This document shows positions 2,109 through 62,295 of a stretch of 64,000 bases of DNA, piece by piece. The first letter of the stretch is position 1, and every line of letters starts with the position of its first letter. This stretch comes from Anadara kagoshimensis (lineage: Eukaryota > Mollusca > Bivalvia > Arcoida > Arcidae). The stretch is taken from contig CM037874.1 of assembly GCA_021292105.1 (NCBI GenBank), forward strand, positions 25,284,583 through 25,348,582, read 5' to 3'. Under the pieces are notes generated by a model. The model was not told where the DNA came from. It ran no database searches and saw nothing but the letters and a program-made list of their open reading frames with translations. Made by a program: the position numbers and the translations under genes.

Positions 2109-2214
2109 ATACAACCTTAACCATCAGAATTCTCACAAAGCCCATTTGACTAACTCCCTTTGATGGTGTTTTATTACAGACAGGTTAGAATGTATTACAA
2201 ACAAAAATACGAAC

Positions 2215-2344
2215 CTCCTCCACTCTGATAGCAGAGATATGGAAACCTCCAGACATTTCCCAATCCGACAGAGTATCCGATCGCAGCGAGGAGAAACTCA
2301 AGTTTCTTACTCCAGTGATCACGTTCTTCTAGAGCCAGCTTCAT
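2215..2344 (-). CDS. SLC6 (family): SLC6-family sodium-dependent transporter, N-terminal exon only
   Basis: Seen: on the minus strand the frame from the ATG at 2344-2342 encodes about 43 residues. They begin with a short charged cytoplasmic start ([14 protein letters not shown]) and continue into [20 protein letters not shown]. Known: this is the hallmark TM1 block of SLC6 transporters for amino acids, GABA, monoamines, creatine and similar solutes. The unwound [10 protein letters not shown] stretch lines the sodium, chloride and substrate sites. The exon closes after GGAG at 2215 with a GT donor at 2214-2213, the usual position after the GGG of TM1. The open frame continues upstream to 2422, but the ATG preceding [10 protein letters not shown] is the natural start. 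An upstream acceptor inside the frame cannot be excluded. Inferred: the remaining exons lie at lower coordinates beyond a long intron or outside the window; I found none in 1-2200. The substrate cannot be called from this exon. Confidence 0.8.
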
Positions 2345-2429
2345 GATGATTTCACGTCCGCAAAGTAAAATATCAGACTCTCTATCTGTACAGAGGCTCT
2401 GTGTCACAAGTGTGTGCAGCAAATCTTTA

Positions 2430-3160
2430 GTCTGTCTTCATAAGAACACTTATTCTAGCTCAGGACGGTGACTTGTTAGCACAATGTAAAATATCTGGAT
2501 ATCCAACAAATCCTTAAAATAGAAAATTTAAATCAATATTTGATTTGTGTTATAAAAATATTTATGTCCTGTTTTTAAACCAAAGTGACTTAAAAACACT
2601 ACAAATTTTAAGAGTACTGTAATGGAACATTTGTTTAAATATTTTCTTAAATATGGCATAATCGTGCAAATAAATATTCATGATGTAAAAATCTTAAAGA
2701 GGTCATCTCATTCATTAAATCAGTCAGTCAGTTGCTTGGAGAATCAGTCAGTTGATCAGTCACTCTGAGTTAGTAGAGTGGCGGGTTTGTTGGTAGGTCA
2801 GATCGGAGTAATCATGTTTTTGCACCCTAATCAAGATGATTTTATATCTAACAATCAGTCCAGGAAACAAAGGTGCCCTGAGAACAAACACCAATCTTCA
2901 ACAAAGCAAACTATTTTACTGACAAACTTTCCCACACTTAAGGATCCGCCTGAGTGTGATTCAATTTCAAACTTAAAGCTACAAGCATGGTGATCATGAA
3001 TTAGACACCATCTTAGGCAGATTATCCAACACTAGGAAGCTAGCAATATATAACATATTTTGTTTACCACACCACCACATTAATCGTCTTAAAAGTTTAT
3101 ATTTTCAAAATATTCACAATATATATTAAACAACTCTCACTAATAATAAAAATATAATAA
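2430..3160. other. Gene-free AT-rich stretch upstream of the SLC6 exon
   Basis: I see no exon, recognised repeat or strong regulatory site. It would hold the promoter or a 5' intron of the SLC6 gene if the exon at 2215-2344 is the first coding exon. Confidence 0.5.
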
Positions 3161-14214: not shown

Positions 14215-14577
14215 CGGACGCAGGAATTTCGATACCGGTATGCTGAAGATGAGTTAGGTGATTTCGGGTTAAGCATTTGTAAAGTGGAACAAAATCCTGC
14301 AATCTGGACGCAGGAATTTCGATACCGGTATGCTGAAGATGAGTTAGGTGATTTCGGGTTAAGCATTTGTAAAGTGGAACAAAATCCTGCAATCTGGACG
14401 CAGGAATTTCGATACCGGTATGCTGAAGATGAGTTAGGTGATTTCGGGTTAAGCATTTGTAAAGTGGAACAAAATCCTGCAATCTGGACGCAGGAATTTC
14501 GATACCGGTATGCTGAAGATGAGTTAGGTGGTTTCGGGTTAAGCATTTGAAAAGTGGAACAAAATCCTGCAATCTGA
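14215..14577 (+). repeat. 90-bp minisatellite, 4 copies
   Basis: CAGGAATTTCGATACCGGTA starts at 14221, 14311, 14401 and 14491. The first three units are nearly identical and the fourth has two changes. Because 90 is a multiple of three, long open frames appear on both strands; I take them as by-products. Confidence 0.95.
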
Positions 14578-29881: not shown

Positions 29882-32800
29882 ATGTCCGGTGATGTGGTAT
29901 TGGTGACAGGGGGCAGTGGATTCCTTGGTCAGCATGTCGTCAAACATTTACAAGAACAAGCGGACCATGTGGGAGAAATACGGATATTGGATGTAGAACC
30001 ATTCCAAAAGAAATTAGGTAAATATTTCGTATGTACATGCAGTGGTAAAGTCAAAGGACCACTGTATGATAAGTTCACACGCGGTAGATATAATGGTCTA
30101 GCTAGACAAGAAGTGGTTGTCCTTCCGGTGACCTAATCTCACTTAAATACCTTGTGGAAGTTCATTTTTGCTCAGTGATCGTTCAAAGCTGGAAGTTTGG
30201 AAAGATCAGATAACGTTTATTGTGGCATGTTCTTGGCTCTATAGGCCTACCAGCTGCACATATTTCAGCTACGAACTTAATGGCTACAGTTTTAAATGCC
30301 ACATCATATACAACAGCAGCAAATTAGCATCAAATTCCATACAGTGCAGGCTGAATTGAATGGATTCTTATTGTTGTCATAGTGACATTGCAGTTAAATT
30401 CGCGCCATTTCGATTCATTTTTTGTAAGTTTATGGGCTACACCATCTGTTAAGGATTGTTCACTAGCGGATTAGGCGCGTTATATTTCTATTTTATTACA
30501 TGAATTACAGAGTGGCTTAGACTAGGAAACAATTGCAATGACCATTAGATCATGAAATGAAATTATAATTTATTAGATGCACCGTTTTTGTTGGAGAGGA
30601 GTTTTCCTTAAAACTGGCCGTTTTTTTAATAGATGTCTTGTGTTGTTAATATTACATAGCTTTACTTACACTTTGTATTGCACACATATTCATCAATGCA
30701 AATGTTTGCTTAATTCGTTTCCATGGTGATAGTTTGAATCCCTGTATATGCAGATAGGTAAAGTTGGCTTCTAGGAGCTCATGTATGCACCCTAATCCCT
30801 ATACCAAAAACTCATTTTTCATTTTAAAATCAATTTTTCTCTATTTCTGGACAGATTATGAAGATAACAAGCCTGTAGTTACTTTATTAGGGAGTATAAC
30901 CGATGAAGATATCCTTAAGAAGGCTACAAAGGGAGTTAACTGTGTCATGCACCTGGCAGGGGTTGTCAGTGTGAAGACATTTCCTGATACAGCATTAATG
31001 GAAGAAGTCAACATCAGAGGTAAGGAACCACTTTATTAATAGAATTAGAATATGTTTGTTTCAAAATTTTGTATCCCATCAATTACATCAAGGATTTGTT
31101 TCAAATTGATGGTGGTGGGTTGGGCTGTTATTATACCCCCCACAAACAAGACAGATCCTTTTGTAGATCAGATAGATGCATTTGTGTTTTGATGTGTACC
31201 AATCAATAGAATCTTTGTAAAATAATTACTTCGTTTTTCCATTTTGTCTCACAAAGGGTTTCTGTTAAATCACTTGTACTGTTGTTTATAAATCTAAGAC
31301 AGGACGCATAAATATTAAAATCTTGATTCATGACAACCACTTGTTCATTAAAATTTTGGCATTTATAAACAGGTTTGGTGATAAATAAAGGAGGATTATA
31401 AAGAAAAAAGTAGATAACAATGATTTTGGGACTTAAAAATAGTGTAGTGATAAGCAAGGTTGAAAAGTCATAGAGGGGTATTATAATGAAGTTTTACTGT
31501 ATACATGTAACAGGAACAAGAAAAAAATGCAGGGTCAGATCGAGGATCCAACTCAGGACCTCCCACCCCATAGACAAGTGCTCTACCAACTGAGCTACCT
31601 AGCCACCAATCCCCAGTCCAACCTGCATTTTCTTGTTCCTGTTACACATAGAATTGATAATTCATGTCATACTTTATAATTTATCCAGGCACACAGATGT
31701 TGATACAGGCATGTTTAATACAAAATGTGGATCTCCTAATTCACTGTAGTACAATGGATGTTGTCATTGGATACGACAACATCATCAATGGTACGGAAAC
31801 TACGATTGGTTATCCTGACCAGCACTTGTTTGATGCCTATGCTGTAACAAAGTGTCAAGGTGAAATGGCAGCATTAAAAGCAAATGGAGAAACATTGAGT
31901 AATGGTCAGTACAATTGAAAGTACAGTTAAACCTTTCTATAAAGGTCACCTAATTGAACCGGTAAAAAGGCCTTTATGGGCAGGTGGTCCTTATATACAA
32001 ATTCAAATTCAGTTAACCTGGCTCAAGAGTGATTGGTGTAAAAGTAGACTGTTCTTTAGAAAAGCAGGTGGTCCTCATGATATAGAGGTGGTCACTGTAC
32101 ATAAGAGACATTACTACTGTCTCTGCTGAAGGGGGGTGGTATCTTCTAGGTGAAACAGTATAGCTCCTGCTTTAGAACTGGGCAACCTTGTTTTGATTCC
32201 AGGCATCTTGGGAAGGTTGAATCTTTTTTGTTCACCTGTTCACATAGAAATGCTGAACAGCTTACCTAAGCCTTGACACGAGCAACTGCAGTGTTAATTC
32301 CAGGATTTTTAGAGTGGTCTATTTAAAAAAAGTTTAAAACATCATAATGCCATCAGTATTTTTGCATTCATTTTATGTTAAAATTCAGCCAAATACAGCC
32401 TTAACAAAGGAGATAGGGTGACAGAAAAGGGGTCAATGGCCCCTTCTAAAACGAACACTGAATGAGCAAATGCATCCAATGTTAAATGTTTTGGGGTAAA
32501 GAAGTGTGTTGATAGATAAATGATAAAGAATTGATGTGGTGCAGGTGAGCTATACCTATGCCCTTCTGAAAGGTCTTGTTATTTGATGAAGAATTGATGT
32601 CAATTAGAAATGTGAACATTATTCTAAGCTTTTTATTGTTTTATTTATTTAGGGAATCAGCTACAGACCTTGTCCTTGAGACCAGTTTTAATGTATGGTG
32701 AACTAGATCCACATTTTATAACAAGGGTCCTTAAAACAACAGCTCAATCTGGTGGAAAACTGAGAAAGTTTGGTTCTAACGAATCATATGCACAGTTTGT

Positions 32801-33209
32801 TTATGTCGGTAATGTGGCATGGTCATTTATATGTGCACATAAAGCGATGAGGTCAGATCCCGACTTAGGTGGAGAGGCTTTCTTTATAACTGATGATACA
32901 CCAACAGACAATATTTTCAACTTCAGCAAACCATTTCTGGAAGCAAATGGATTCTGTTTGTCTTCTAACACAATCCCATACTGGCTGATTTATTTCATCA
33001 TTCTTTTCCTAAACTTTGTAGCTTGGGTTATCTCCCCTATTCGACAGATTGACATGCCAGCAACATTGTCTTCTGTAATATCAATGAATATGAAAATAAG
33101 CTTTTCATCGACAGAGGCATATAAAGTCATAAATTACAAACCTCTCTTTGAACCAGATCAAGCACACAATTTGTCCATGTTGTTTTACAGTAAAGTTTTT
33201 AAAAGGTGA
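29882..33209 (+). CDS. HSD3B-like: 3-beta-hydroxysteroid dehydrogenase/isomerase family protein, paralogue A (4 exons)
   Basis: Exons: 29882-30017, 30855-31019, 31689-31904 and 32653-33209, all joined in phase 1 at GT/AG sites; they encode 357 aa. Seen: TGGSGFLG at residues 9-16 is the dinucleotide-binding glycine motif. Asp37 at the end of beta-2 favours NAD over NADP. Ser121/Thr122 precede the catalytic pair Tyr151-x3-Lys155 (YAVTK). LRP then MYGE follow at about residues 181-188. A hydrophobic segment at about 280-302 matches the membrane-associated helix of the family. Known: these extended short-chain dehydrogenases oxidise 3-beta-hydroxysteroids at ER or mitochondrial membranes, and vertebrate enzymes are about 370 aa. 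Sterol 4-alpha-carboxylate dehydrogenase (NSDHL) is the main alternative, so the substrate is uncertain. A strong acceptor ends at 29877, four bases before the ATG, so a non-coding first exon probably lies upstream. Intron 2 holds a tRNA-like element and intron 3 a TA-flanked MITE. No clear poly(A) signal is close; AATAAA at 35245-35250 is a distant candidate. Confidence 0.9.
31507..31645 (-). mobile_element. tRNA-like element flanked by inverted copies of its tail (intron 2 of paralogue A)
   Basis: GTAACAGGAACAAGAAAA at the left and its exact inverse TTTTCTTGTTCCTGTTAC at the right enclose a minus-strand tRNA-like core (GGTAGCTCAGTTGGTAGAGC, GAGTTGGATCC). ACAT is present on both outer sides. 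Related SINEs carry that tail on one side only. Confidence 0.75.
31924..32097. mobile_element. TA-flanked MITE, CAGTCAAAC family (intron 3 of paralogue A)
   Basis: The left end CAGTTAAACCTTTCTATAAA and the right end GATATAGAGGTGGTCACTG are flanked by TA at 31922-31923 and 32098-32099. Its internal open frame is not coding. Confidence 0.65.
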
Positions 33210-37214: not shown

Positions 37215-37560
37215 TATGCATGCCTGGCAGCTCAAGATATCTCGAACGAAGATCATGCCCCTAAGAGCATGCACGCTTGGTCGTTCAAGACATCTCGAAC
37301 CAAGAACATGACACATAAAATGCATGCCTGGCAGTTCAAGACATCTCGAACCAATACCTTGACACTGAGAGCATGCATGCCTGGCAGTTCAAGATATCTA
37401 GAACCAAGACCATGGCACTTAAAGCATGCATGCCTGGCAGTTCAAGACATCTCAAACCAAGACCATGGCACTTAAAGCATGCATGCCTCGCAGTTCAAGA
37501 CATCTCAAACCAAGACCATGGCACTTAAAGCATGCATGTCTCGCAGTTCAAGACATGGTT
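37215..37560 (+). repeat. 53-bp tandem repeat, about 6.5 copies
   Basis: TGCATGCCTGGCAGTTCAAG recurs every 53 bp (37321, 37374, 37427, 37480 and so on) with AGACATCTCGAACCAAGACC between. Early units are more diverged. Open frames across it are by-products. Confidence 0.9.
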
Positions 37561-43236: not shown

Positions 43237-46200
43237 ATGGTTAAAGATAGTAGAGTTTTGGTGACCGGTGGGAGTGGATTTCTAGGACAACACATTGTAA
43301 AACATTTACAACTTTATTTTGATGATGTGGCAGAAATAAGGGTTCTAGATCTGATACCTTATCAACAGAAATTAGGTAAATACAGAAAAACTTGATATAT
43401 CATCAATATTTGCATAGTCAGATTTGGCATACTTCAAGGAGTTTGCCAATAAATGGGGTTCGCCGCTGTACCACAAGGTCAATACCTCTTAACGTTTGTG
43501 CGGAACATTTTGGAAAATGTCAACGTCACAAATTCCTGGAATAACGTCGTTTTTACGGGAAAACGTCATATTGTGCGATTCCATGTCAATTGGAAACAAG
43601 CGTTTCGCAGACACGTTAGAAGGTATCACGTGGTACAGCAGCGAACCCCATTGAGGGAGAATTATAAAAGGAAACATAAAAGAAAAAACTCTTGGGCTTT
43701 AAAATATGGTGGCAACAAGTGAGATGCTAATACTAACTAGGGGTAGTATATCAAGGCTTTTCTGCATGTGCACTACAACATTGTCAGTATAGTTATAAAA
43801 ATTCTTACTAAATGGTACTGATTCACTACAACATTCTAAAAAATTATAAAATCATATAAAAACTGTTTTGCAGGATAAAAACTTTATTTTGTTTTTTACA
43901 ATAATATTCAAAATGCCTCGATTCCAAAATTTTTTGGCTTTTTTTAGTGGAAAATAAAATTTTAGTGGAGGGTCAAATAGAATGCTGCGCATTTGTAATA
44001 ATCAGTATGGAATTCATGATGTAATAGCGATCGAACAGTAATATTTTTAAGGCCCTTAAATTTGCCATTAACACATTGCATACAGCAGCTTTACCTAGAG
44101 ACATCTTGATATAATCAATCATTCTTGACCAGATTGTTGAATTCCATTCAAAAATTATCACAGTTTTAATTTAACATAGAGACTCTCTCAAAATAATCTA
44201 GATGAAACATTTGTTTCATAAAAATGTTTCATAACTGTTAAAAAAAACAATATCTTAGATTTAGTTTTAAATTTTAAAGATTTTGTAAAAATAATATTTT
44301 CTTAGTTTTATATAGATTTGTTTTAAATTTTACAGATTTTGACACAAAGGTAGAAGTGAAGAGTTACGAGGGCAGTATAACAGATTTAGATGTCGTATGC
44401 AGGGCATGTCGTAAAGTTGATGCCGTTATCCACGCTGCCTCATTAATCGACAGTAGATTTCTGCCAAATATTGAAGCATTGAAAGAAATCAATATCAGAG
44501 GTGAGTAAAATCTGTACATCATTTAGACCACTGTAGCTCAGTTGGTAGAGTATGTGGGAGGTTATGGGTTCAAACCCTGGCAGTTGTCTGACCAAGACTA
44601 GAAAATAGGTAGTGACTCTTCTTTTGCCAAGTACTAGTACTCTGCATTAGAAATGAAAATCATGGGGTCCTTCATAAAAGACTTTAAAAACTGATGCTCC
44701 ATGTCATGGCAAGTGGGGCATGTTAAAGAGCCCTCCATGCACATTGCCCTGAGTGAACTGCAATGGTCAGAATTTCTGCCACTTCACCTCTATCTGGTGA
44801 CATCTCAATATAAGTGAAGTATTCTTGACTTGGTCGTAAAACTCCAATCAATCAATCAATTAATCAATAAATCAGATCAATCAATCAATGTACATTATTT
44901 AGGTATACAATGGTATTAATATCAAACTAACCATCATTAAAGCAGATAGTTTAGCATATACATTATTAGAATATTCTGCTAAATATAGATTGATTGACAG
45001 GTGTGTATATTAATGTGGGTGTTACCTAACAGTGACAATCTATCTTGACATTTCATTACTAGTAAACACACATGTATTTGCATGCATTTTGTGTTGTACA
45101 CATAGTGCTTGGTGTGTGTTTTGTCTAAATTAACCAAAAAAAAAGAAAAGAGAATCAAAATCCTTGTAGTTACTGGTAGTTGTTGGTACAGTCTCCTTGT
45201 GATTGATCCACCAATTATTTTATAATAATTTTATAATTTTATAATTTTATAAACCTTCGATTACAAACTCCTCCGATGGATTCAGTAGAGTTCTTAACAC
45301 AAGTACATGTAGTACATGTATTATAAAAAATTTAAAACATGCAACATTTTGCAAACTGCAGTAGTTGTATCTAGGCATTCTTTTAGTTTTAATGCTTAAA
45401 TGATTAAACAGAACCCACCACAGTGACAGTAGGCAAAGAGCCGTATGTTTGATTATAATCAATTTTTTGTCTTAATAATGAGTTGTTTAAACATCCTCTA
45501 CTTCACATTGTGCTTTTTCAATGAGAACCACTGTCCTTGCACTAATACATTTGTATGTTAATTTATTTGTGTAACAGGAAAGGGTAAAATGTAGTGGCCA
45601 ACTGGAAATTGAACCTGGGACCTTCCCAGTACTATCAGATGCTATAGACTAAGCTACCTGGCCACCCATCAAGTCTGGTCCTCCACAGTTGTTTTTGTTT
45701 TTATAATGTACATGTTTATTTAACTGCATTTCTATAATATTTCTATATATATATTATATATTTCAGTTTTAATTTTACAGCACTAGACGGCCGTTTTGGA
45801 ATACAATTCCTCATGAGTAGTGCTTGGACCAAAATTATGAAACCAAAATAGTTTTCAAGATGTTGAAAAGATACCCAAAGGAAGAAAATATATTTTACCA
45901 AAATTAGCCAAGGAAATATACTTTGCATGAGGGAGTATTCCTTAGCCTTTGAGAAATTTCAAATTTTAACTAGCAGCAAATTTAGTCAATAGTATATTAA
46001 TTTCTGACAATAATACACAATTATAGCCAACTGAGTTTGTGATATCTTTTGTTCTTTATGGATGTATTATTTACAGGTACAGAGACGGTTATAAAAGCAT
46101 GCCTGCAGGAAAATGTGAAATATTTAGTGTATTGTGGATCAATATCTGCTGTTCAGGGTTATGAAGAAGTGGAAAATGGAAATGAATCCACACTTCCAGT

Positions 46201-48422
46201 TCCATCACCACGATTAATGATCAGGGATTATGGTGGAACAAAATACTACGCACAGAGTCTGGTGAAGAATGCTGATGGCAAAGCAACAAAAGATGGTAGG
46301 TTATGGGAGTATGGTTGAAAATTGTTTTTCACTAATGACTGAAGTCAAAGATTTTTCCTTATATTGATAAAGTCAGATTTTGAATGATTGAGTAAATTCA
46401 AATACTTAAAGAAAACCACCAATACTTGACAAGTGAACTGATTACCATTATCTTTGTCACACTGGAATATGCTGGGTCAAAGAGTGACTTGAACATAGAG
46501 GCATTATGATTAATAGGCCAATGTGTTGGCCCAATATCATATGTATTACTGTCATATTGTGTCCTACTAAACAAAACCAAAACAACAAAATTTATTCCTA
46601 TGTAAGACTTAAAATTCCCCCCAAATGAAGTGGGGAAACATATAGCATTTACTCATTTTCTTCTGTCACTTTTCATGAGAAACTATTTAGCTAATCTGTA
46701 GGACACTTCGCAGGAGCGAAATCTGGATGAAGTAGATGTTGCATTGGCTATTTGTAATTTGATCATGCATATGGTTTGAGATTTCCAAGTTGGTATTCAT
46801 TTTGGCAGACACTTTTTAAACAACATTCTATTTCTGTTATAATTTGTTTATTTGATATATTTTGTAGGAACTATCCTTCATACAGTGACCTTACTACCTT
46901 TAACCATGTTTTGTGAACATTTGTATATTTGATATATTTTGTAGGGACTATCCTGCATACAGTGACCTTACTACCTTTAACCATGTTTGATGAACATTTG
47001 TATATTTGATATCTTTTGTAGGGACTATCCTTCATACAGTGACCTTACTACCTTTAACCATGTTTGATGAACATTTGTATATTTGATATATTTTGTAGGG
47101 ACTATCCTGCATACAGTGACCTTACTACCTTTAACCATGTTTGATGAACATTTGTATATTTGATATATTTTGTAGGGACTATCCTGCATACAGTGACCTT
47201 ACTACCTTTAACCATGTTTGATGAACATTTGTATATTTGATATATTTTGTAGGGACTATCCTGCATACAGTGACCTTACTACCTTTAACCATGTTTGATG
47301 AACATTTGTATATTTGATATATTTTGTAGGGACTATCCTGCATACAGTGACCTTACTACCTTTAACCATGTTTGATGAACATTTGTATATTTGATATCTT
47401 TTGTAGGGACTATCCTTCATACAGTGACCTTACTACCTTTAACCATGTTTGATGAACATTTGTATATTTGATATCTTTTGTAGGGACTATCCTTCATACA
47501 GTGACCTTACTACCTTTAACCATGTTTGATGAACATTTGTATATTTGATATCTTTTGTAGGGACTATCCTTCATACAGTGACCTTACTACCTTTAACCAT
47601 GTTTGATGAACATTTGTATATTTGATATCTTTTGTAGGGACTATCCTGCATACAGTGACCTTACTACCTTTAACCATGTTTGATGAACATTTGTATATTT
47701 GATATCTTTTGTAGGGACTATCCTGCATACAGTGACCTTACTACCTTTAACCATGTTTGATGAACATTTGTATATTTGATATATTTTGTAGGGACTATCC
47801 TGCATACAGTGACCTTACTACCTTTAACCATGTTTGGTTAACATTTGTATATTTGATATATTTTGTAGGGACTATTCTTCATACAGTGACCTTACTACCT
47901 TTAACCATGTTTGGTGAACTTGATACTAACCTTATCAGCAAGGCTTTCGGAACAGCTAAAAGTAATAATGGAGTATTACAACGAGTGGGAAATGGAAAAG
48001 CTCTGGCACAGTTTGCCTATGTGGGCAATGTTGCCTTCGCATTTATTTGTGCATTAAAATCTCTTATTGCAGGATCTGATATTGGGGGTCAGTTCTTTTT
48101 TATCTCTGATGACACACCCCCACAAAACACGGCAGAATTTTTACAACCATATCTGAAATTACACAACTATAAAGTCTCTAGAATATCCGTGCCAGCATTT
48201 TTCGTTTATTTTTTTATCGCCCTTATTCAGGTATTTTTATACATTTTGTCACCTGTAAAGCGTGTCAGTATGTCGGTCAGTCTGTCCGCCGTAATTTTTC
48301 TAAATCGGACATTCTATGTTAGTTATGATAAAGCCAGGACATTATTATCATACTTTCCAATTTATACCCCTGTAGAAGCGGAACAAATGTCTTCACGATA
48401 TTACGCAACTTGTAAATTTTAA
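43237..48422 (+). CDS. HSD3B-like: 3-beta-hydroxysteroid dehydrogenase/isomerase family protein, paralogue B (4 exons)
   Basis: Exons: 43237-43375, 44336-44500, 46077-46295 and 47869-48422, all phase 1; they encode 358 aa. Exon lengths of 139/165/219/554 match paralogue A (136/165/216/557), so the two are tandem duplicates. Seen: TGGSGFLG at residues 10-17, Asp38 at the NAD-preference position, Ser123, catalytic Tyr153-x3-Lys157 (YGGTK), MFGELD at about 188-193, and a hydrophobic segment at about 283-303. The LRP of paralogue A is LLP here. Intron 3 ends in fourteen tandem copies of its own acceptor region, and only the last (AG at 47867-47868) opens the full exon 4. The final coding tail is repeated downstream at 48511-48567. 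A TATATATA run at 43169-43176 could be a TATA box or part of a 5'-UTR acceptor. AATAAA at 49131-49136 is a plausible poly(A) signal. Function is inferred as for paralogue A; divergence around the active site may mean a different substrate. Confidence 0.88.
43452..43652. mobile_element. MITE, 'GGGGTTCGCCGCTGTACC' family copy e (intron 1 of paralogue B)
   Basis: AATGGGGTTCGCCGCTGTACC at the left and TGGTACAGCAGCGAACCCCA in inverse at the right, 201 bp overall, with inverted arms of about 50 bp. Open frames on both strands arise from the palindrome. Confidence 0.85.
44523..44870 (+). mobile_element. Full-length SINE-like element (intron 2 of paralogue B)
   Basis: Head GTAGCTCAGTTGGTAGAG with B box GGGTTCAAACCC, body with AAATGAAAATCATGGGGTCC and GACATCTCAATATAAGTGAA, tail CTTGACTTGGTCG, then (AATC)n-type repeats. 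The tRNA-like head starts about 20 bp after the exon 2 donor. Confidence 0.85.
45578..45690 (-). mobile_element. tRNA-like SINE (intron 2 of paralogue B)
   Basis: Minus strand GGTAGCTTAGTCTATAGC and CAGGTTCAATTTCC with the family tail TTACCCTTTCCTGTTA. Confidence 0.6.
46845..47922 (+). repeat. 14 x 77-bp tandem array of the intron 3/exon 4 junction of dehydrogenase paralogue B
   Basis: Each unit contains the intron end (TTTGATATATTTTGTAG or the ATATC variant) and the first ~50 nt of exon 4 (GGACTATCC...ACCATGTTTG). The G of the acceptor AG falls at 46867 and then every 77 bp up to 47868, without a single length slip. The last unit runs into the true exon. Units differ only at a few sites (ATATA/ATATC before the acceptor, CTG/CTT after it), giving blocks of identical neighbours that suggest recent expansion. 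Units 1-12 read into TGA 65 nt after the acceptor, and unit 13 reads TAA earlier. Confidence 0.95.
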
Positions 48423-56912: not shown

Positions 56913-59900
56913 TTTTCCAATAGACTTTGCATTTTCTGCCGCTATTTTTTCTTAATCTAAATCTGGCAAAACTTTAAAGTTAGTTTTCAAAGTATTCATG
57001 AACATAAGGTGTCATTTTAAGATCATTCTATGCTGATCACATCTATTTTCAAAATATCACGGTTGATACTGTGTTGCCATAAAATATAACCAAAATTACC
57101 AGAAGTTTTATAAAGTAATATCTTAACGTAGTCTGATGTATATTAACATGTTTATTTAAAAACTTTATTAATAGATATGATGATTTTCAGAACATGTTTT
57201 TTGTCACATTTTGTTATTTTGCTGTTGCATGTTAACAACATAATTTTCCTCTTACATGCATGTGTGAAGCAGTGAAGTAAATATAAACATTTTTCCTTTC
57301 AGTTGTCAAAAATACAAGATGTATATCGAGAGCAAACGTAGTTTATATGATTCCCGGAACAACTGATAACCTATCCTCGGAAACATTTCCAGTGTTAGAA
57401 TCCTTTTTAATTGACCTTACAAACTACTTTGGGATTCAGAAAAATGGGGTTAACATCGGACTCATGATGTATGGGAAAGAACCAGTAGTTACCACGGAAC
57501 TGAAACCATTTAAAACACAGAAACAAATCAACACACGGGTATCCTTAATGTCGAAAAGGAAACAGTATGCGAACCGACTTGATGGTCCGGAAAATTTATC
57601 ACTGGCTATACAGAGAATGGTGAAAATGTTTGACTTGTCCACGCAGAAAGCTCCGGATTTTAACTTCCTGTTGCCAGTTCCGACCTATAACATCGCAGTT
57701 TTGTTCGTGAATGGAAGTAAGAACTTCGACCAATACGCATTACAAGCAGCCACAGAAGCAAAGAATAGAGGGATAGTTATATATGTTATTAGTTATGGTA
57801 AAAATGGTGTAGACATGTTACCTCTAGATCTGGCTACAGACCGGTGTAAAGCATACACTGTTGATGATTATCCTGTTGGCTTATCAAACTTGGTCTCAAA
57901 GATTGGAAACAGCATTTGTGAAGGTACGTTATAAAAAAGGACGGGGAACATTTCAAAATAGGTAAAAGCATGTCACTAATGGAAACCTAGCACATGACAA
58001 GATACATGAATACTTATATGAGTTTCAAATGGTTTTAGGGTGGAAAGAGAATTATTTCATATGAGATAATGACATTTACTTTTCAATGTTTCATCCTGAC
58101 ACATAATCATTTGCACGTCATACAGTTGTAGTTGTTAATAAGGATACATAAAAATGTTTTCAATAGCAAAATGTTCATATGCATATGACTTAAAGGTGGC
58201 TTAAAGACGGAGGCGCTTCAACCTTGAAACCTCCTTTATGCTACAGATGGAATTTCTTCTTTTTGCTTTAATCCACTATAAAACATTAAGAGTTCCATTG
58301 TTAAATATCTCACTTTAAAAAGGCTATATTCAAATGTTATAAACGAATACCATGTTGCAAAATAGACTTAGAAACGTCCCAACCTTACCAGAAATCTTTT
58401 ATACACCTTCAGTCTATAATGACAACAGGCTTCAAACAACAGCACCATTTAGTTGTCCAACATAAGTCGCATTGTACTTACTTGCATCTAAAATATTCAA
58501 GTTGGTTCCGATATATTTCTGTAACCACCTGGTGTTCTTTCGCCCCCTCCCTCATTAAAACGGACTTGTAATGAAGTTTTTTTCTATGGAAAGCGTCGTC
58601 TGATTTTTATTTTTTTGACACATACGATTGCATGTTTTGACATAATATTCAAGTTCGATCTTAGATCAAAATGCAGGCATGTCATGTTTATTATTTCTTA
58701 ATTAATCTATACACGCAATTGCAAGTCATCCAGTGCTTAGTGTGTCAGTAGGGCGAAGTTATTACAATAATCATTATCATTTTATTAGTTATCTGTCATA
58801 ATTATAGGAATCATTACGTGTTAATGTCATGTGGACGTACGCATTGGTAGATAAAATGTTATCACAGTCATTTTTGATGTAATGATTATCGAGATTATAC
58901 CATCAAGTCCAGTGCAATACCAATCTACAATCGTATTTCTGACTTCAGTTATATTTTCTTAATTGTAATTTTGAAGATATAATTACACATTTTCAAAAGA
59001 CAAAGTCACCATTTGCTCATACATTCATTTCTCTGTCACAAAAGAGCCTTGTATTAAAAGCCTAATTGATATAGACTATGGTAATCATTAATATCTCAAA
59101 GTTCGCAAAAATAGTACATGTATATCCATTCCACTTTAGCACAGGGTTTCCCATAAACCTAAATATGTTGCTCTTTTTCTAGTTCATGTTTTTGCAACAA
59201 TGTATTTCTGTTAGTTTCCTCAAATTTAATTTGTAAAATCATCTCGATATCACAGTCATGTGTTACTTTTGATTTTTTTTATGAAATAAAACATTCAAAT
59301 GTAGCACATGCCAATATTAATCTTAATATACACAAGTTTACATTGTTAATTTAGTCTTCTCAATATGTGTCTTGCTTTCTTATTCCTATCGATTGTTATT
59401 CCAACATTGTGATTGGGTTGGTTTTTACTAAGTGCTAGTTATAACCCATTCTAAATTATTCCGTAAGTTTATATTTTGATCTAGCATAAAAAGTCTCTGA
59501 ACATTTTTTGAAAGTATCTTGCTAATATTGTATCGGATATGGGAGTTGGTGGCGTTTCGACGTAAGTGAAATAGTCATTGTTCCTAACGACATACCACGT
59601 GACGTATTGTTTACAGTTTGTTGACAGGTGTTAGGTGGACATGACTAATTACACGTTAAATGAATTAAGACAAATGAAGAAATGATGTACTTTATATAGT
59701 GTTTATAATGAATCACTATGTGAATTAAGATCGGAATGTAAAGGTGTATTTACTCATTTTATTTACTATCAAACATAAACATAACATTCTATGTTCAAAT
59801 CACAAACATACCAGTCCATGTCAAACACATGCATACCGGTCTTTGTCAAACACCAACATACTGGTTCATGTTCAAACCACAAACCTGCCATATCATGTCA

Positions 59901-62295
59901 TTAAAAAACATACCGGTTCATGCTGAACATAAACATTTTGTTTTATGTCAAACACAAACAAACCAGCCTATGTCCATATCACAAACATACCGGTGCATGT
60001 CCAAATCACAGACATACTTGTCCATGTTCAAAACACAATAATCATGTTCATGCAAAGCACAAGCACACTGGTTCATATTAACCACATGCATACCTGCCCA
60101 TGTTAAACACTATACTGGTCCATGTTCAAATTGCTAGTATACCGGTCTATGTCCAAATCACAAACTTATTGATCAATGTTCAAACTTCAAATTACAAACA
60201 TACCGGTCCATGTTCGAACACAAACATACCATTCCATGTTAATATATCAGACATACAAGTCCATGTCCAAATCACAGACATAACAGTTTATGCCAAACAC
60301 AAACACACTGGTTCATGTCAAACACAAACATACTGGTCCATGTTCAAATCACATACATAACGATCCATGTAAACTTCAAACATATCGGTCCATGTTCAAG
60401 CCACAATCCGGAAGCGTGCGCACCTCAAACCTAGCTACACGTAGTTACACCTGTCACATGTGAAATTAAAATTGAAATTAAATTGAGAATGAAAAGGGAC
60501 ATGGAAAATGGGACGCCAAATATATTCGATATTGTGATAATGGCCATAAAACTTTTTGAGGGTTCAACTCGGTTGACATATCTCTGAGCTAGCTATTCGC
60601 TAAAATACACGAACTTTTGTTTGGCCTTCTTTAACGCTAATGCTATCGCGCAAAACCAAATTTCGGAACACCCCTTCGATAAAATGCGCATTTCCATTCT
60701 TTGCACTGCTTCTAACATACTATTTATTCTACCTTAGCGTGAATGTGTACATAATTTAGAAAATTTAGATTATGTTGCTGTTATCCCGTAACATTTAAAG
60801 TTTTCATTTCAAACATATGCATGACCGCTTTGTACATCCTGAAACTTTGCACGTGTCAGAACACAGCATAAAGGAACGCACTTTTAAATATTTTAGTGAG
60901 GAAAAGAACCAGCTAGTCAATTGAGTTATTCCCCTTGGTATATTAATGACCCAACGTAGCTATATAATATATATATAGTTGGAAGAAATATGTGTGAATG
61001 GTTTATATTCTGACATAAAATTTTATCATTACCTTTCCATTGTAGTTACAGATAGACACCTTGAGAACGTTACCAGACCAGACTCCTCTACATGTAATTC
61101 ATGTAAGTAATCAATATAAGATCTTATGCAATGCAACATGTCAATAAGACGCAAAATTAATACCTGTTTAGGACAGCAAATATTACATTATACACATGTA
61201 TTATATAGTTAGATGTTTCCTGCCAACCAATTATTTGTCTGAACCCTTTTTATCAAAATACTAGTTCTTAAAATACGTATTGACTGTTTAGGCTTACTAA
61301 GTGATTTTTACAAACTCGACATTATTCATCTTTCCCTTGCTATTTTTATTTTTACATGTACACCATATTTTTTCTTTGAGATATGCTGCCGTACGCGTGT
61401 TGTCAATTTTTTTAGCAAACCCAATGTTTGCAAAAACTTTTTTTTATAATCTCAATGTCAAATTATTATCGTTTTATTCAGTATTATTATGGCTAAGTCC
61501 TAGGGTTGTAGGGAATTTTTAATCAGAGGTTTCAACAAGAGCTTATATATTGTCTTTTGTTATATTGTCGCGATATGTTCTTTGCTACTCTAAATATTAC
61601 CCTGAATACGTCATTCAACTGCTTGCTTTCCTTATTATACTCCGCCTTTCGAAGAAAGTTGGGGATATTAATTTCGAGTTTCTGTCCCTCCGGAATTCTT
61701 GTCTGCGCTAATTCTCCAAAATTATTAAGCATAATTTCACGAAACTTGGGGCAAAGAATCATGCGCATATCGTTAACCAGGGTTGGTTTGCTCATTTTCC
61801 TGAGAGTTATGACCCTTTGAACACAAATGCAAATAACAAAAAGAACCATTTGGCGGGGGATCCCAATTCACTGAATTTGCTTGTTTCATAGTAATTCTTA
61901 AAGTGATTATGGTTTATTTTTTCATTGTAGTAATAGTTTATGAACCACCTCCATTGGAAAACAACATCGTCTGCAGACGAGAGGAAGAGCTGTTCCCGGA
62001 TGTACACAATTGTGCATATTTTTACAAATGTCATCTTGGAATACCAACCCGACTAAAATGTCAAGTTGGAGATGTATTCGATTCAAGAACTCAAACATGT
62101 AACTATAAAGACGCTGTCTCCTGCTACAGCCAGATCTCGTGCCCGCGAGAAACAGGACTATTTCCGTATCCGGGAGACTGCTTTAAATTTCTGAATTGTT
62201 TCAGAGGAATTTCGTATGTTTTAACATGCCCCAAAGGACTTATGTTTGATAAGGTCTCAAAACGTTGTTTACGTCCCGGCGAAACATTTTGTTGA
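56797..62295 (+). CDS. Secreted VWA-like protein with two chitin-binding type-2 domains (Pif/BMSP-like shell-matrix candidate)
   Basis: Exons: 56797-56863, 57303-57923, 61046-61102 and 61931-62295, all phase 1; they encode 369 aa. Seen: a signal peptide at residues 1 to about 22 (TLTCVSLFCFILGVLSQ), a VWA-like domain at about 34-228, a short linker exon (230-248), then two peritrophin-A/CBM14 domains. Their cysteines are 263, 276, 282, 292, 305, 313 and 319, 332, 338, 348, 361, 369. The VWA metal site looks lost: the DxSxS position reads MIPGTT and the later Asp position reads FVNGS. Known: secreted VWA plus ChtBD2 is the architecture of bivalve nacre and shell-matrix proteins such as Pif97 and BMSP, which bind chitin. 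Pif also has a laminin-G domain and BMSP several VWA copies; neither appears here. TATATAT at 56722-56728 is a possible TATA box and AATAAA at 62320-62325 a near-ideal poly(A) signal. A role in the shell or another chitinous matrix is inference. Confidence 0.88.
56868..56915 (+). repeat. (TTTA)n microsatellite in intron 1 of the VWA gene
   Basis: About twelve TTTA units starting directly after the donor site of exon 1. Confidence 0.95.
57924..59769. other. 5' part of intron 2 of the VWA gene
   Basis: No extra in-phase exon was recognised. A short foldback related to 24237-24390 lies at 59256-59311 and a SINE-tail fragment at about 59545-59580. Confidence 0.5.
59256..59311. repeat. Short foldback, CATGTGCTACTTT family
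   Basis: CATGTGTTACTTTTGATTTT and the inverse AAACATTCAAATGTAGCACATG; related to 24237-24390. Confidence 0.6.
59770..60420 (+). repeat. Degenerate minisatellite 'AAACATACCGGTCCATGTTC' in intron 2 of the VWA gene
   Basis: About 18-20 units of 28-36 bp, each with CAAACATACCGGTCCATGTT or close variants and an AAACACA or AAATCACA spacer. It ends in TTCAAGCCACAATCCGGAAGC, resembling the single-copy dispersed repeats at 13640 and 56122. The open frames across it are not coding. Confidence 0.85.
61645..61890 (+). repeat. Dispersed repeat, second copy of 41862-42128 (intron 3 of the VWA gene)
   Basis: Same ordered words as the first copy. It ends about 40 bp before the acceptor of the chitin-binding exon, so it supplies the sequence just upstream of the branch-point area. 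Confidence 0.75.

Follow-up and report, generated by a model that had tools for sequence, protein, structure and literature searches.

Tandem and alternative 3′ splice sites are known, for example NAGNAG acceptors and duplicated-acceptor test constructs, and a donor-side case is provided by the human IFI6 (6-16) gene, which includes a minisatellite with a 12-bp unit. This minisatellite was described by Turri, Cuin and Porter in 1995 (NAR 23:1854) and, as quoted in a later article, it carries multiple splice donor sites (PMC4526556). It has also been cited as interfering with splicing of the gene (PMC3618361), and the reference appears in PMC2572611 as well. A related process is intron gain by tandem genomic duplication, in which, as reviewed in PMC3443670, a new intron comes from the duplication of an AGGT within an exon. 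Two other candidate precedents were discarded: DDX3Y/MSY2 (PMC3039753), where the minisatellite turned out to belong to a promoter, and PMC11018521, in whose accessible text there was no case of such a kind. The titles and abstract beginnings among the matches listed in the open-access literature included no acceptor-side equivalent of IFI6, a weak form of absence. The original prediction about the locus described below, that it had no described equivalent, was nevertheless too strong, since the donor-side minisatellite of IFI6 is known, as PMC4526556 recounts.

The HSD3B-like gene and its array

The window, a stretch of 64,000 nucleotides of the Anadara kagoshimensis genome, includes on its plus strand a gene of the HSD3B type. 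The coding part of exon 1 (43237..43375) shares 74% identity over 43 amino acids with exon 1 of an upstream paralog and ends at the donor TAG/GTAAAT. Exon 2 (44336..44500, donor GAG/GTGAGT) and exon 3 (46077..46295, donor ATG/GTAGGT), which encodes the sequence YGGTK, were located by tblastn to the paralog and join in frame. The gene model confirmed the donor after 46295, so that 46296 is the first base of intron 3, and placed 572 nt (46296..46867) between this donor and the first copy of the acceptor. Exon 4, the last coding exon, extends from 47869 to 48422 when it is entered through the last unit of the array, unit 14, and ends with the stop codon TAA at 48420-48422. Joined, the four exons can be read without interruption for 358 residues, and the introns between them are of the GT-AG type. 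A nucleotide-binding motif TGGSGFLGQ and a YxxxK sequence are marks of the 3-beta-hydroxysteroid dehydrogenase family; the former is present in the joined protein and the tyrosine of YGGTK is residue 153. The Pfam family 3Beta_HSD (PF01073) matched residues 8-277 (1.8e-58, 198.3 bits against a cut-off of 22), and the best PDB sequence match of the predicted enzyme was sterol-4-alpha-carboxylate 3-dehydrogenase (4.8e-18).

A 77-bp array lies over the junction of intron 3 and exon 4. Tandem Repeats Finder located it at 46842-47919 (plus strand) with a period of 77, 14.0 copies, 98% matches, 0% indels and a score of 2016, the highest among its 43 rows for the window, and an independent repeat search found 14 copies spaced by exactly 77. 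The repeat of 14 units in exact register, claimed at the outset, was therefore reproduced by both searches and by a unit table; the array had been placed at 46845-47922, which gives its extent correctly in a register shifted by 3 nt, an arbitrary choice. Each unit consists of the last 26 nt of intron 3, which end in TTTTGTAG, and the first 51 nt of exon 4, which start with GGACTAT (GAACTAT in unit 1), and this register is kept without indels. The sequence TTTTGTAG followed at the junction by G was present in 14 of the 14 units, so that there is a splice signal inside each one. The 15-mer over the junction, TTTTGTAGGGACTAT, occurred 14 times with at most two mismatches versus 0.31 expected in shuffles. 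Each unit runs into the next, and the rest of exon 4 is reached through unit 14 only. As a head-to-tail series of near-identical units, the array is a minisatellite. Used as a DNA query against the 1.115-Gb assembly (36 contigs), in a search that skips very common words, it matched its own locus only, which ruled out a dispersed repeat, and no known RNA family reached its gathering score within the window.

The upstream paralog (29882..33209, plus strand) has homologous exons and its intron 3 lies at the homologous position, with no tandem array over the exon 4 acceptor. A search of the assembly for exon-4-like matches found at least 5 loci including the array gene, all on contig C18. In the three distant ones (L007-L009) an AG was present at the homologous place before the exon 4 match (3/3), and a tandem array over the exon 4 acceptor was found in none of the four other HSD3B exon 4 loci, the upstream paralog and L007-L009.

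Some other features of these loci were recorded. A 36-bp array of 22.4 copies with 93% matches lies inside intron 3 of the distant paralog L009 (L009:1560-2365, contig C18). The exon 4 products of L007 and L008, about 10.7 Mb apart on C18, are near-identical, while the exon 3 match covers 32 query residues in L008 versus 74 in L007, and in this part L008 may differ or have suffered damage. By eye, stretches resembling tRNA-derived SINEs are present in introns of both HSD3B genes of the window (44530-44610 and 31560-31650); a box-B-like GGTTCAAACCC was noted there, and the opposite strand has a stretch resembling it.

Acceptors, predicted products and splice signals

The gene model agreed with the predicted acceptors at 46868 + 77k and 47869 and with the donor at 46295. 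Unit 1 (46842..46918), the 5′ edge copy, has its first exonic base at 46868 according to the unit table, and its acceptor is the only one with the native intron upstream; all the others are preceded by another unit. Units 2-12 (46919..47765) are homogenised interior copies, in which a TGA stop is supplied by the intron part of the next unit, and unit 13 (47766..47842), the 3′ edge copy, leads to a TAA stop at 47839; all lie on the plus strand. The unit table thus matched the expectation of TGA for units 1-12 and TAA for unit 13. Splicing to 46868 + 77k (k = 0-12) is predicted to yield 195 amino acids ending at TGA from units 1-12 and 190 amino acids ending at TAA from unit 13, and 47869 is the sole route to the whole 358-amino-acid protein. 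The decoy product anticipated in the original prediction, about 195 residues with YGGTK and lacking the C-terminal part, was accordingly obtained from the gene model, with the shorter form for unit 13. The predicted decoy products keep Tyr153 of YGGTK and lose the C-terminal part, and the truncated enzyme is probably inactive.

Removal of such transcripts by nonsense-mediated decay had also been proposed. The decoy stops fall within the last coding exon, and because of this terminal location the classical exon-junction route is not expected, unless there is an intron in the 3′UTR. Classical decay through the decoys was therefore disfavoured; a truncated protein, or decay by the long-3′UTR route, is a more likely consequence of their use. 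Premature polyadenylation inside the array was set aside, as neither AATAAA nor ATTAAA occurs in 46842-47919; past the stop codon, between 48768 and 50019, there are six hexamers of these two types.

The acceptors were scored with a matrix built from 13 non-array HSD3B acceptors of the same genome, including the near-duplicate loci L007 and L008. The array acceptors scored 7.9 (6 units) or 11.0 (8 units, among them the productive one), so that on this small matrix 7 of the 13 decoys equal the productive site and 6 fall below it. The 13 training acceptors, scored on their own matrix, ranged from 4.4 to 16.3; a score of 11.0 beats 3 of them and 7.9 beats 1. In the genome sample described below, a score of 11.0 was reached by 0.3% of the AGs on the strand as given (n = 10,113). 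These scores suggest that the array acceptors are plausible ones at the lower end of the real ones, and that the decoys may be weak. The original prediction held that all 13 decoys present the same acceptor context. The 13 extra acceptors are present, in contexts that are near-identical instead of identical: at -9, six of the 14 units carry C in place of A, and unit 1 departs from the others by a T in place of A at -20 and by GAA, where they read GGA, after the junction. The split between 7.9 and 11.0 is due to one base, the C at -9, and with so small a training set it is not a firm difference in strength.

Compared with U1, the GTs of the array agree at 5 of 9 positions at best, and the three real donors at 7-8. 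Since the array GTs are far below real donors, use of the units as exons is not anticipated, and mini-exons or introns within the array were ruled out for lack of a credible donor. Folding of units 2-13 was unremarkable (z 0.73; 15 of 20 shuffles fold at least as well), leaving no signal of an RNA structure that masks the decoys.

Origin of the array and competing explanations

Five of the 14 units (2, 4-7) are identical to the consensus, eight (3, 8-14) have one to three differences and unit 1 has five. Variants private to one unit are found at sites 7, 28 and 71 of unit 1, site 74 of unit 13 and site 34 of unit 14. Within units 2-12 variation is confined to sites 18 and 37 and forms an ordered mosaic: C18 occurs with T37 in units 3 and 8-10, and alone in units 11-12. 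G72 is common to units 1, 13 and 14 and T37 to units 1 and 14, and from this distribution both are taken as putative older states. Private changes at the edges together with two-site variation in the interior are the usual pattern of growth or turnover from inside, and the array is an ordinary minisatellite seeded on a splice junction, which would have arisen by slippage or unequal exchange. Between units 1 and 14 there are 4 differences in 77 sites. With this divergence as a clock and an indel rate assumed to be one tenth of that of substitutions, an unconstrained gene should have acquired about 3 disabling changes since the first duplication, and the probability of finding none is 0.05 (range 0.44 to <0.001). 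The open frame of 358 codons is thus weak evidence that the gene was under constraint after the first duplication.

The abundance of similar arrays was estimated in 200 kb, consisting of 20 hand-chosen stretches of 10 kb at round coordinates on contigs C1-C14. This sample included 117 arrays, 57 of them with a period of at least 20 and holding 13% of the bases (26,270/200,000). Six arrays had a period of at least 30 and at least 10 copies, and 4 of these 6 reached at least 90% matches, which scales to about 22,000 per genome. An acceptor number typical for animals, assumed here, is 200,000. With this number and a 77-bp unit, about 300 arrays would cover an acceptor by chance, without selection. 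The array itself needs no special explanation. Its unusual position does need one, though chance may account even for this where minisatellites are so abundant. Within the window there are also a 90-bp array of 4 copies (14216-14576, 99% matches), which is open in several frames, as is possible when a repeat unit is a multiple of three, and a 53-bp array of 6.5 copies (37216-37556, 86% matches). Open frames at 2195-2437 (minus strand), 57287-57934 (plus strand) and 61837-62295 (plus strand) resemble by eye an SLC6-type transporter exon, a VWA domain and chitin-binding repeats.

We favor, with a probability of about 0.72, the explanation that the array is a tolerated load on splicing, that is, a junction-straddling minisatellite with mixed use of its acceptors, the last of which supplies enough mRNA. 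In a working gene of the HSD3B type, a 77-bp segment across the boundary between intron 3 and exon 4 would have been duplicated locally in tandem and would have expanded to 14 copies through turnover of the interior units. Every copy would then carry a usable-looking acceptor, with the whole exon only after the last copy, and the gene would persist because enough transcripts use the last acceptor while the others give a truncated, probably inactive enzyme. We infer the mixed use, the inactivity of the truncated form and the tolerance of the load; the array is probably an accident rather than something selected for. The main rival has the same origin and supposes that the decoys are ignored, with definition of the terminal exon and enhancers downstream of unit 14 making 47869 nearly the sole site used; as both readings share this origin, the confidences in them overlap. 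Silence of the decoys is the less probable of the two, though a real possibility. It fits the open state of the gene and the location of the rest of the exon, which follows unit 14 only, as well as the lower scores of 6 of the 13 decoys, a matter of one base on a small matrix. Carranza et al. 2022 (PMC9225289) report that, among competing 3′ splice sites, the upstream one is generally preferred, less so in long introns, and the shortest intron option here is already 572 nt; the proximity figure of that article is for internal exons, so that its transfer to the terminal exon of another animal is an extrapolation. Such silence is harder to reconcile with decoys in each of which both the acceptor and 51 nt of the exon start are preserved, with few variants, and which lie in RNA where no unusual structure was found.

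The general upstream preference reported in PMC9225289 would, if strict, lead to the opposite outcome: mostly truncated transcripts, in a gene that should have decayed. A dying or null allele of the same origin, in which the early acceptors take most transcripts and the enzyme is lost, would agree with unit 1 being transcribed first and being alone with the native intron upstream. The uninterrupted frame of 358 codons and the GT-AG introns argue against it, weakly, given their low statistical force, and we consider such an allele unlikely. Still more doubtful is a regulatory role, in which the count of decoys would determine how much of the enzyme mRNA is productive and selection would act on copy number. 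The locus does have what such a device would need, one productive site among fourteen near-identical acceptors that would compete, and on the small matrix 7 of the 13 decoys equal that site in score. Turnover of the repeat, however, explains the homogeneity of the interior, none of the four other HSD3B exon 4 loci found has an array over the acceptor, and arrays are abundant in the genome sample. It is equally doubtful that the length of the array governs how much of the 3Beta_HSD-like enzyme is full-length rather than truncated, perhaps with differences from one individual to another, as in the idea of the original prediction that copy number could tune enzyme output. Least probable is an assembly artefact with a real copy number of one or a few. 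Tandem arrays can be mis-sized, but this one, at 1,078 bp, is short compared with long reads, and the ordered mosaic of units with private variants at the edges is unlike a mechanical stutter.

Comparison with known systems

The 14 near-identical acceptors of one intron, which differ mainly by their position, amount to a natural experiment on splice choice. They pose the question of whether a 3′ splice site is chosen by proximity, by order of transcription or by exon definition: a win of the distal site would mean that exon context outweighs order, and a win of the proximal one that the gene is crippled. They also illustrate how a widespread kind of repeat growth can burden splicing and yet leave a reading frame intact.

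The array resembles NAGNAG sites and duplicated acceptors in having competing acceptors of one intron, and differs from them and from the test constructs in that its 14 near-identical acceptors are natural, lie 77 nt apart and each have their own upstream tract. As in intron gain by tandem duplication, the duplicated segment carries splice signals within a gene. Unlike in the model of PMC3443670, as far as its accessible text describes it, an old acceptor has been multiplied here, the unit junction is AG/GG or AG/GA, and the duplicate includes no usable donor (at most 5/9 versus 7-8). The closest likeness is to IFI6, where, according to the articles that cite it, a minisatellite at a splice junction also repeats the splice signal and gives competing sites, with alternative transcripts in that gene. 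The donor is repeated in IFI6 and the acceptor here, in a unit of 77 bp; any choice other than the final one truncates the protein here; and use of multiple sites is reported in IFI6 by the same articles, while here it is only predicted from the sequence. By this analogy, the array gene is in form the putative acceptor-side counterpart of IFI6, a known kind of arrangement in a new variant, on the other side of the intron.
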